Assembly (NCBI GenBank): GCA_029550525.1 | Contig: JAKPHF010000048.1 | Span: forward strand, 226,181-290,180 | Length of the DNA stretch: 64,000 nucleotides | DNA from: Planctomycetota bacterium | GTDB lineage: Bacteria; Planctomycetota; Phycisphaerae; UBA1845; PWPN01 | Direction: 5' to 3' | In this document: positions 7,504 to 13,056 of the stretch, piece after piece | Layout of the letters: each line of letters starts with the position of its first letter | Numbering within the stretch: position 1 is the first letter of the stretch | Notes under the pieces: model-generated | The model's database searches: none | What the model was told of the DNA's origin: nothing | Seen by the model: the letters and a program-made list of their open reading frames with translations, nothing else | Program-made: the position numbers and the translations under genes

Positions 7504-8077
7504 ACGTGAACCCAACCAGGGCAAGCGGCGGAGTCAGGCCGGCATGGGGATAGGCGAGGCCTACGCCATACTGGGCCTTGAGTCCGGTGCCAGCCCGCAA
7601 CAGGTTCACGCTGCCTATCGACGGCTCGCTCTGAAGTATCATCCCGACCGCAACCCCGGCCACGAAAACCTCGAGCATTTCAAGCGATTGGCGGCAGCCT
7701 ACCGATTGCTGCGGAACAAATTCCGGCTTGATCGGACTGATTCGCAGCTGGTCCGCGGCGTGTGCGATCGCTGCGGCGAGTACGCCGTAGTGCACCAGAC
7801 GCTGGATGGAAGCCGTTCCTGTGCGACCTGTCTGAGCTTCTTCAACCGGCGCCCGCTCCTGCCTGCTCCGACCATCACCATCGTCACTTGCGCCACAACC
7901 ATCGTTCTGCTCGCGCTGGCTCTGGGCTGCCTCCTGGCAGGATTGATCCTCTCAAGTCCCGGGTACCTGCTCATGACCATCGTGTTGGGGGTCAGCGCGC
8001 TGGTCAGTTTGGCTGTGACCTGCGTGACTGTGGTTTACACGGCCGATCCACATCACCTGTCGAGAAGGCGAACATAG
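7484..8077 (+). CDS. J-domain (DnaJ-like) protein with Cys4 zinc-ribbon-like motif and C-terminal TM segments
   Basis: AYAILGLESGASPQQVHAAYRRLALKYHPDRNPG (HPD motif); CDRCGEYAVVHQTLDGSRSCATC; two hydrophobic segments. Overlaps the previous CDS by 20 bp. Confidence 0.9.
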   Translation: MNSTDAEREPNQGKRRSQAGMGIGEAYAILGLESGASPQQVHAAYRRLALKYHPDRNPGHENLEHFKRLAAAYRLLRNKFRLDRTDSQLVRGVCDRCGEYAVVHQTLDGSRSCATCLSFFNRRPLLPAPTITIVTCATTIVLLALALGCLLAGLILSSPGYLLMTIVLGVSALVSLAVTCVTVVYTADPHHLSRRRT

Positions 8078-8168
8078 ATCTGGCTGGCTGGGGGAACCTA
8101 CCGTCTGCGCGCAGAGGTCGCGCGCATGAATGTTGAGCCTTCGATACTTCCGCGAGACAACTGAGGCT

Positions 8169-8363
8169 TTACGAGGCCGCGGTCATGCGCGACGTGATCT
8201 CGCGTCGCATGGATCCGCGATATGGGCTCGGCGAGCCGGACTGCCGTGCGCTGGCAGGGGAAAATGCCTGAGCCAGGAGTTCAGCCACGGAGAGCCGTTG
8301 TGACGATGTCGGCGTGCAACCGTTCTTGCTGCAGCCCGTCAGGCCTTTGCACTGGACACACAT
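8169..8363 (-). CDS. Small Cys-rich protein, 64 aa (MCVQCKGLTGCSKNGCTPTSSQRL...)
   Basis: ATG preceded by AAAGGAGAGCCGATC (strong Shine-Dalgarno); four Cys in the first 16 residues; plausible upstream promoter. The ORF track gives a longer version starting at 8426. Confidence 0.7.
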   Translation of the reverse strand: MCVQCKGLTGCSKNGCTPTSSQRLSVAELLAQAFSPASARQSGSPSPYRGSMRREITSRMTAAS

Positions 8364-8415
8364 GATCGGCTCTCCTTTGGCGTTTGGAAGACAACCGCTA
8401 TATCGGCCGCCACCC

Positions 8416-8445
8416 ATTAGTAGCATTAATGCTGTGATTAGTCAA
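8416..8445 (-). promoter_or_regulatory. Putative promoter: TTGACT - 18 bp - ACTAAT, spacer contains the 12-bp perfect palindrome AGCATTAATGCT
   Basis: Reverse complement of 8416-8445 reads TTGACT AATCACAGCATTAATGCT ACTAAT; lies ~53 nt upstream of the small-ORF ATG. Confidence 0.55.
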
Positions 8446-8608
8446 TCGAAAACTGGCCTCCGAATAATCCGGACCTACTGAGCATCATTATACAATAACA
8501 TGCTCGTGATTATTTTCACTATTAGTATTTCTCATAAGTGGCGACTCGACAGAACCTCGGCGGGCCAGTCTACGACGTTGGCAAGGACACACGATCGGGA
8601 TGTGAGAC

Positions 8609-9946
8609 TCAAGACTTCAGCGAGCGAAGCGCATCCTCAGCCGCAGCGATGGTCGCATCGATCTGCTCAAACGTGTGAGCCACAGACATGAACATCACTT
8701 CGTACTGGGACGGGGCCAGATAGACGCCCCGTTCCAGCATGGCATGGAAGAACTTGGCGTAGAGTTTGGTGTCGCTCCGGGCAGCCGACGACCAATCCGT
8801 CACTGGGCCGGGCTGGAAGAACACCGTGGCCATGCTGCCCACCCGGTTTTGGGTGATCGGCACACCAGCGTGACGGGCGGCTGCCTCGAGGCCTTCGGCA
8901 AGCCGAGCAGCACGCATCTCGAGTTGCGAGTAGAAGCCTTTCTCGTGGACGGCCTGGAGCGTGGCCAAGCCGGTCGCCATCGCCAGCGGATTGCCTGAGA
9001 GTGTGCCCGCCTGATACACAGGACCGAGCGGGCTGAGCTTGTCCATGATCTCGGCCCGGGCACCGTATGCGCCGACGGGCAGCCCACCGCCGATGACTTT
9101 GCCCAGACAGGTGATGTCCGGGGTCACGCCGTAGAGCTGCTGGGCCCCGCCCAGGCCGACGCGGTAGCCGGTCATGACTTCGTCAAAGATCAGCAGCGAC
9201 CCGTGATCGGTACAGAGCTTACGCAGCTCGGCGAGGAATCCCTCGATGGGAGGAACGCACCCCATATTTCCGGCCACCGGCTCGATCAGGACGCCGGCGA
9301 TCTTCTTGCCGTGCTGGGCGAAGATTTGCCGAATGGCATCCACGTCGTTGTATGGGGCCACGATGGTGCACGACGTGACGGCCTCAGGCACGCCGGCCGA
9401 TGAAGGCGTTGCGAATGTCGCCAAGCCGGACCCGCCCTTGACGAGTAGCGAATCGGCATGGCCGTGGTAACAGCCCTCGAATTTCACGATATAGTCGCGA
9501 CCCGTGAATCCGCGGGCCAGCCGAATCGCGCTCATGGTGGCCTCGGTGCCGGAGTTCACGAAGCGAATCTTTTCCATCGATTCGAAGTCGCCGAGAATGC
9601 ACTCGGCCAGACGGGTCTCGATCTCGGTCGGCGCTCCGTACGACCAACCCTTGTCGAGTGCCTTGCTGGCCGCAGCGGCTACACGCTCGTCGGCATGGCC
9701 CAGGATCATGGGTCCCCACGATCCGACGTAGTCGATGTACTCGTTGCCGTCCATGTCCACCAGGACGGCCCCCTTCGCCCGAGCGATGAACAACGGTGTG
9801 CCGCCTACCGCCCCGAATGCGCGAACGGGGGAATTGACGCCGCCGGCCAGCACCTTCCTGGCGCTCTCGTATGCTGCGGCGGACTTTTCGGTGGAACGGG
9901 TCGGCGTTTGTGGATTGTCTGCGTTTTCGGCCATGTTCCTGATCAT
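8609..9946 (-). CDS. hemL: Glutamate-1-semialdehyde 2,1-aminomutase
   Basis: GGVNSPVRAFGAVGGTPLFI, DYVGSWGPMILGH, FVNSGTEATMSAIRLARG, IFDEVMTGYRV. Confidence 0.96.
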   Translation of the reverse strand: MIRNMAENADNPQTPTRSTEKSAAAYESARKVLAGGVNSPVRAFGAVGGTPLFIARAKGAVLVDMDGNEYIDYVGSWGPMILGHADERVAAAASKALDKGWSYGAPTEIETRLAECILGDFESMEKIRFVNSGTEATMSAIRLARGFTGRDYIVKFEGCYHGHADSLLVKGGSGLATFATPSSAGVPEAVTSCTIVAPYNDVDAIRQIFAQHGKKIAGVLIEPVAGNMGCVPPIEGFLAELRKLCTDHGSLLIFDEVMTGYRVGLGGAQQLYGVTPDITCLGKVIGGGLPVGAYGARAEIMDKLSPLGPVYQAGTLSGNPLAMATGLATLQAVHEKGFYSQLEMRAARLAEGLEAAARHAGVPITQNRVGSMATVFFQPGPVTDWSSAARSDTKLYAKFFHAMLERGVYLAPSQYEVMFMSVAHTFEQIDATIAAAEDALRSLKS

Positions 9947-11676: not shown

Positions 11677-11883
11677 TGTGGATAAGTTGTCGCGTTTACG
11701 GTATCTTAGAACGCATATTACGAGCTCAGACCGATGGTGGGTTTACGCCCGGGCAGGGCCTGGCGCGAAGGCCGGGGTTACCAACACGTTATCCACGGCC
11801 AGTATCGGAGAATCCCGATACGTAAACGACTGTTATGGAATGATTTACGCATTTCAGTCGCCAGGGTGCTGTCATAATCCACA
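11677..11883. other. Candidate oriC with DnaA-box-like sites and a repeated TTTACG motif
   Basis: TGTGGATAA (11677-11685, exact complement of TTATCCACA), TTATCCACG (11789-11797), TAATCCACA (11875-11883); four TTTACG motifs; lies between dnaA and dnaN. Confidence 0.75.
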
Positions 11884-11958
11884 GCACCCAACTTCGCTTC
11901 CAGACCTTTACATGAGAAATCAATTAATACAGAACCCAACAGAAGGAGCGTCGCACTC

Positions 11959-13056
11959 ATGCATGTGATCATCAGCCGAAGTGCTTTGCTCGAAGTTCTG
12001 GGAGCTGCGTCCAGCGTGGCAGCGACGCGGACCACCAAGGAAGTCCTCAAGTGCGTACGCCTGACCACGAAGGACGATACGCTGGTCCTGGGTGCGACGG
12101 ACCTGGAAGTTGCGCTTCGAGTCGAGATTCGGCAGGTGCAGATCAAGAAGAAGGGCGACCTGCTGATACCGGCTGACAAGCTCACGCAGATCGCTCGTGA
12201 ATGTACCGACGACACGCTGACGCTGGAGTCCGACGAGCAGGTCTGCCACATTCGCGGTCAGGACAGTCATTTCGAGATTTACGGGCACGATCCGCGGGAG
12301 TTTCCTCCCGTGCCGGAGCTGGAGGGTCAGCCGGACGCCGAAATCGAGGCGGCCACGCTGCTCGAACTGATCAACAAAACGCTGTTCGCGGTGGCCAAGG
12401 AGAACACGCGTTACGCGATTAACGGGATTCTCTGGCAGAAGGCCGGCAAGAAGCTGGTGCTGGTTTCGACGGACGGGCGTCGGCTGGCCCGGGCGCAGGG
12501 TCCGGCCGAAGGCACCGGCGGCGGTGATACGCAGATGATCGTGCCCGCAAAAACCGTCCAGGTTCTCCAGCGGGTGCTCGGCCACGCCGAAGGCAAGGCT
12601 GCCGTCCGTTTCGCCGGCAACCAGGTGGTGGTGCGAGCGGATTCCTACGTGGTCAGCTCCGCCTTGGTGGAGGGTCACTTCCCGCAGTACGAGGAGGTGA
12701 TTCCCAAGGACAACGACAAGAAGGTCGAGCTCGACACGGAAGAGTTTCTGAGCGCGGTGCGGCGGGCGGCTCTGCTCACCAACGAGCAGTCCAAGGGTGT
12801 GCGGCTCAAGTTCGACGACAACCAACTGATTCTGTCGAGCCGGGCCCCCGAACAAGGCGAGGCCACGATCTCCATGAAGATCGAGTACACGGCGGCTCCC
12901 GTCGAGATCGGTTTCAACCCGCTGTTTCTGACTGAGGCGTTGCGAGTGGCCAACGCGCCGACGATCACGCTGGAAATGAAGGACGGCAACCGCCCGGGCG
13001 TGTTCCGCGCGGGGCCGAGCTTCCTGTACGTGGTCATGCCGGTGAACCTGGCTTAG
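11959..13056 (+). CDS. dnaN: DNA polymerase III subunit beta (sliding clamp)
   Basis: 365 aa; starts MHVIISRSALLEVLGAASSVAATRTTKEVLKCVRL and ends YVVMPVNLA; DnaN-like spacing throughout. Confidence 0.96.
   Translation: MHVIISRSALLEVLGAASSVAATRTTKEVLKCVRLTTKDDTLVLGATDLEVALRVEIRQVQIKKKGDLLIPADKLTQIARECTDDTLTLESDEQVCHIRGQDSHFEIYGHDPREFPPVPELEGQPDAEIEAATLLELINKTLFAVAKENTRYAINGILWQKAGKKLVLVSTDGRRLARAQGPAEGTGGGDTQMIVPAKTVQVLQRVLGHAEGKAAVRFAGNQVVVRADSYVVSSALVEGHFPQYEEVIPKDNDKKVELDTEEFLSAVRRAALLTNEQSKGVRLKFDDNQLILSSRAPEQGEATISMKIEYTAAPVEIGFNPLFLTEALRVANAPTITLEMKDGNRPGVFRAGPSFLYVVMPVNLA

Follow-up and report, generated by a model that had tools for sequence, protein, structure and literature searches.

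Three reports (PMC11241148, PMC6562870, PMC2253796) describe the haloarchaeal C(P)XCG zinc-finger micro-proteins as stand-alone proteins of fewer than 70 residues that carry four Cys residues with the capacity to hold one zinc, and indicate that some of them act as regulators. The title of one of these reports (PMC11241148) states that several predicted zinc micro-proteins do not bind zinc, and for this reason a zinc reading of any protein of this kind is made with caution. The product of a small gene in the 64,000-nucleotide stretch of planctomycete DNA analysed here (the window) resembles the haloarchaeal proteins, as described in those reports, in its length of fewer than 70 residues, its stand-alone nature and its four Cys residues.

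A small cysteine-rich gene and its homologs

The ORF begins with an ATG at 8363-8361 and ends with a TAA at 8171-8169 on the minus strand (Table 1). Homologs are present as one copy each in 8 of 13 genomes of the same Phycisphaerae MAG family: the genome of the window ORF (G000), a second member of its genus (G001), and G002, G004, G005, G007, G009 and G012. All eight carry the N-terminal pattern C-x2-C-x-[GN]-L-x2-C-x4-C, in which the four Cys residues are invariant, followed by tails that vary; in G004 and G012, four additional residues precede the first Cys. A GA-rich, Shine-Dalgarno-like stretch lies at the matching place ahead of the start codon in all eight. An earlier note on this DNA had claimed a small gene with Cys residues at positions 2, 5, 11 and 16 behind the ribosome site AAAGGAG, and had reasoned that the claim would fall if no homologs kept the Cys pattern and no transcript began near 8400-8410. 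The gene is real, the letters of the ribosome site are in place, and the homolog search that the note proposed recovers the pattern in the eight genomes listed above, so that a refutation on the first of these counts fails.

Table 1. Positions of sequence features at the small-gene locus, in window coordinates.
Feature	Position	Strand	Remark
Cys4 micro-protein ORF	8363-8169	minus	64 codons + stop; sequence MCVQCKGLTGCSKNGCTPTSSQRLSVAELLAQA...
N-terminal motif M-C-x2-C-x-[GN]-L-x2-C-x4-C	8316..8363	minus	C2, C5, C11, C16
Second block RLSVAELLA	8268..8294	minus	weaker conservation; predicted short helix
Ribosome-binding site AAAGGAG	8378-8372	minus	8 nt 5' of ATG
ACTAAT, downstream copy	8421-8416	minus	putative -10 region; 21 bp from first copy
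Perfect 12-mer palindrome AGCATTAATGCT	8433-8422		within 18-bp spacer; probably incidental
ACTAAT, upstream copy	8437..8442	minus	direct repeat
TTGACT, putative -35	8445-8440	minus	overlaps upstream ACTAAT
ACTAAT, third copy	8521..8526	minus	84 bp farther upstream
AT-rich region, hemL end to small gene	8364..8608		GC 0.48 vs 0.64

Short ORFs are frequent (112 ORFs of at least 40 aa are listed in 12 kb), and the 64 codons could have arisen by chance within AT-rich non-coding DNA. However, homologs with invariant Cys residues across several genera rule out such an origin, whose probability we consider negligible, and nucleotide change is biased towards synonymous positions. Between G000 and G001, whose ortholog is 40% identical and occupies the same site between hemL and a J-domain gene, third positions account for 13 of the 20 nucleotide differences in the first 16 codons (p=0.004), and both TGT and TGC are present at each Cys position across the homologs. 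Moreover, the ORF itself is not AT-rich, its GC of 0.64 being equal to the mean of the 64-kb window. Judged by these patterns of conservation, the ORF is a genuine gene under clear selection, and it represents a previously undescribed, unannotated micro-protein family.

We searched 114 genomes of the order for a degenerate nucleotide pattern that encodes the motif, with the reversed pattern as a control. The forward pattern gave six matches, all of which are true homologs inside the family, and the control gave none. Only two matches were seen in the other 101 genomes of the order (G051 and G099), both of which are broken by stop codons and were set aside as chance-like. When the pattern was applied to 397 genomes of the class, one extra match was encountered outside the family (G708), which has no wider resemblance to the small protein and was likewise regarded as chance-like. 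A looser pattern added the G004 and G012 copies only, and gave no copy in the five other family members, some of whose genomes are incomplete. We call the family narrow because these order- and class-wide pattern searches revealed no true copies beyond the eight of the 13 family genomes. Searches of genome contigs and of viral and plasmid sequences with the small protein returned no matches. Three of the carriers appear in GTDB, as records JAAXZI01 (G007), JAAYCU01 (G009) and JAKLEZ01 (G012), and their isolate names may point to anaerobic digesters.

No family scored above threshold for the small protein in Pfam, NCBIfam, PHROG or PDB sequences. The profile of the heterocyst-inhibition peptide PatX (NF047413) shows a weak likeness to the window protein only, which is confined to residues 20-55 in the variable tail and reaches 18.9 bits versus a cut-off of 30; this match is absent from the homologs scanned and was taken as chance. 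The WhiB-like profile PF02467 gave no match for the window protein and reached one of the eight homologs at an E value of 0.082, which is below threshold. An AlphaFold2 model is of low confidence (mean pLDDT 58), with a sole helix at residues 26-33 and no fold around the Cys residues. The RLSVAELLA block is kept to varying degree in G000, G001, G004, G012 and G002, and is lost or altered in G009, G007 and G005.

Gene neighbourhoods and the peptide alternatives

Five distinct gene neighbourhoods occur among the eight homologs. In the window, the small gene has hemL (8609-9946, minus strand) on one side and a convergent J-domain gene (about 7.5-8.08 kb) on the other, and past the latter is a gene for an M56/BlaR1-like peptidase. 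The hemL/J-domain setting is common to G000 and G001, and the neighbours in G004 and G012 are a STAS gene and one that we take, from its translation, to be TrkH-like. The small gene neighbours a TIM-barrel gene in G007 and an RTX protein gene in G002. Pfam assignments for the scanned neighbours comprise M56, DnaJ, class-III aminotransferase, HDOD, histidine kinase, STAS, TIM barrel and RTX. The next downstream gene is convergent in six of the eight genomes (G000, G001, G004, G012, G007 and G002), and thus the small gene stands alone there.

In G009 (L060:6297-9703) and G005 (L062:1-2208), an HDOD gene follows the small gene on the same strand, at a distance of about 460 nt and about 260 nt, respectively. 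The two HDOD proteins are 49% identical, and in G009 the HDOD gene is followed by one for a hybrid histidine kinase. The other family genomes searched gave no HDOD protein of this type; their best HDOD matches are about 30% identical and encoded elsewhere, and a link to HDOD as a shared partner was rejected. This same-strand order is nevertheless what would be expected if the small ORF served as an upstream ORF or leader peptide in which translation is sensed at the Cys codons to control the following gene. However, the gaps to the HDOD genes are those given above, and in the six genomes with a convergent downstream gene there is nothing to lead. Because the small gene stands alone in most of its hosts, we consider a leader peptide very unlikely.

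The earlier note had also suggested that the Cys residues could be modified in a RiPP-like way. On this reading the product would be a secreted peptide with enzyme-modified Cys residues, and its gene would use the palindrome as an operator. The small size of the peptide, its Cys and Ser/Thr content and its good ribosome site would suit such a precursor. However, conservation resides in the N-terminal Cys block and variation in the tail, which is the reverse of a leader followed by a core, and the palindrome is not conserved. The neighbours in the window are the M56 peptidase, the J-domain protein and the hemL aminotransferase, those in other genomes are unrelated genes, and no modification enzyme or maturase is present among the neighbours examined for the window ORF and the scanned homolog loci. 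With the Cys residues placed in the conserved N-terminal part instead of a variable core at the C-terminus, and no maturase among these neighbours, the suggestion finds no support and a RiPP precursor appears highly improbable. The lack of a constant partner gene counts against both a RiPP and a toxin-antitoxin pair.

Putative promoter and CTAAT direct repeats

The promoter letters given in the earlier note, TTGACT-18 bp-ACTAAT, are found on the minus strand (Table 1), and TACTAA with a 17-bp spacer is an equally possible choice of the -10 element. This promoter is missing from the list produced by a strict sigma-70 scan because ACTAAT has no A at position 2. ACTAAT occurs only three times on both strands of the 64 kb, in each case on the minus strand within 8416-8526, with spacings of 21 and 84 bp. 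The same three copies are found in G001, spaced 22 and 94 bp, and G009, which belongs to another genus and has another gene neighbourhood, carries GCTAAT twice with a spacing of 22 bp. At the -35 place, TTGACTAAT is identical in the G001 ortholog, and G009 has TTGCTAAT.

On the scale of whole genomes, G000, G001 and G009 (two genera) each contain a single CTAAT-N16/17-CTAAT arrangement, always at the small gene and with its second CTAAT 57 to 59 nt ahead of the start codon. These genomes contain a reversed control pattern 3, 1 and 16 times, and shuffled versions of their upstream regions yield the pair in 0.025%, 0.05% and 0.18% of cases. The pair is absent from the whole genomes of G004, G012 and G002 (reversed control: 2, 1 and 1), and thus the promoter logic that it represents is not family-wide. 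A CTAAT regulon was rejected, as no second site exists in the six genomes.

The palindrome between the two CTAAT copies had been proposed as an operator. When the 250 nt upstream are shuffled with dinucleotide composition preserved, 6.5% of the shuffles contain a perfect 12-mer palindrome. The one at the small gene is absent from G001, which has CAGATTAAGGAT at its place, and from G009, whereas both keep the flanking CTAAT repeats. We therefore rejected the palindrome as a conserved operator and took the direct repeat, which is both kept and rare in shuffles, as the control signal. By these sequence comparisons, the conserved control signal in two genera is the CTAAT direct repeat that overlaps the putative -35 and -10 elements.

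How the pair would act is a separate matter. The repeats share letters with TTGACT and with the -10 place at normal spacing and lie at a constant distance from the start codon, as would be the case if they only served as the core elements (-35/-10) of a promoter, constitutive or dependent on an alternative sigma factor, that needs no separate regulator. However, a general promoter class should be encountered many times in a genome and this pair is encountered once, a third ACTAAT lies farther upstream within the genus, and the G009 version, TGCTAATAC, would make a poor -10 in the same register. We regard a promoter core alone as possible but doubtful, and lean towards the pair being a site for a regulator, given its uniqueness in each genome.

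The description of this region as strikingly AT-rich, also made in the earlier note, applies to the upstream region and not to the ORF, whose composition is like that of the window. No 180-bp stretch of the window has a lower GC than 8360-8539 (0.417), and the upstream regions of the homologs have a GC of 0.48 to 0.55 in seven of eight cases and 0.40 in G009. No Rfam RNA families were found in 7900-8800. An inverted repeat, GAGCAT-N14-ATGCTC, surrounds TATAAT at 8474-8500 in the AT-rich region, and no counterpart was seen in G001.

The genes at 10-16 kb, which we take from their translations to be dnaA, dnaN and gyrB, place dnaA 1.7 kb away. The nearest DnaA proteins in GTDB records come from Phycisphaerae MAGs, and the window is accordingly assigned to a MAG of this class. 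An oriC was rejected as the source of the AT-richness: the DnaA boxes are grouped at 11.68-11.88 kb, with none at 8.4 kb. The cluster, at 11677-11883, comprises a perfect TTATCCACA at 11677 and one-mismatch boxes at 11789 and 11875, and adjoins the AT-rich dnaA-dnaN gap (11818-11997, GC 0.45); it is a likely oriC candidate. In G004 (L058:9678-9830), GCTAATAC upstream of the small gene is closely followed by TGTGGAAAA, with the DnaA-box-like TTTTCCACA, at a locus that has no dnaA nearby, and the same place in G012 (L059) has TATGGAAAA.

A predicted metal-binding micro-protein and its comparison with known systems

Our leading explanation, to which we give an evenly balanced chance, is that the small gene has its own putative promoter and encodes a cytoplasmic, single-copy, stand-alone Cys4 micro-protein that is predicted to bind metal (Zn or Fe-S) and to serve as a small regulator or adaptor. 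Metal ligation by the four conserved Cys residues is plausible in view of their invariant geometry and the analogy with zinc micro-proteins; against it, profile and structure families lend a metal site no support, the poor AlphaFold2 model has no fold around the Cys residues, and free or disulfide-linked Cys residues are a possible alternative in strictly anaerobic hosts.

As proposed, the N-terminal Cys4 knuckle (C-x2-C-x5-C-x4-C) would hold one metal centre, either Zn(II) or an Fe-S cluster, the latter option being raised because the relatives are MAGs of probably anaerobic origin. The short variable tail, predicted to include a helix in some members, would interact with a partner, either a protein or a nucleic acid. 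With such a knuckle and such a tail, the micro-protein would work as a small regulator or a metal- or redox-responsive adaptor rather than as an enzyme. Its gene would be driven by a dedicated promoter. In two genera, CTAAT-N16/17-CTAAT, spanning two helical turns, would sit on the -35 and -10 elements, such that a regulator on the repeats could control access of RNA polymerase. Metal binding, the direction of regulation, the partner and the physiological role are the parts of this proposal that we infer.

A more specific version, which we rate as unlikely and offer tentatively, is that the protein is a family-specific Fe-S/Zn sensor or adaptor that has moved with its own promoter through several relocations, under an undescribed CTAAT-repeat regulator for which it would be the single target with that arrangement. 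For a little-studied group of planctomycetes, the gene represents a micro-protein family whose Cys spacing is new, and its sharply defined cis element, present a single time in each of three genomes, allows the idea of a single-target regulator to be tested directly.

The haloarchaeal proteins, as presented in the reports cited above, have two C(P)XCG motifs, whereas the small protein has one C-x2-C, with no G after it, and then C-x5-C-x4-C. It therefore falls outside the C(P)XCG class, which is defined by two motifs in fewer than 70 aa, and its likeness to these proteins comes without a demonstrated sequence relation. The WhiB-like Fe-S regulators (PF02467) have the pattern C-Xn-C-x2-C-x5-C. 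Unlike these, the small protein has its fourth Cys after the triplet rather than before it (no Cys is upstream, C2 being the second residue) and lacks the remainder of the domain; what it shares with them is the C-x2-C-x5-C spacing of three Cys residues.
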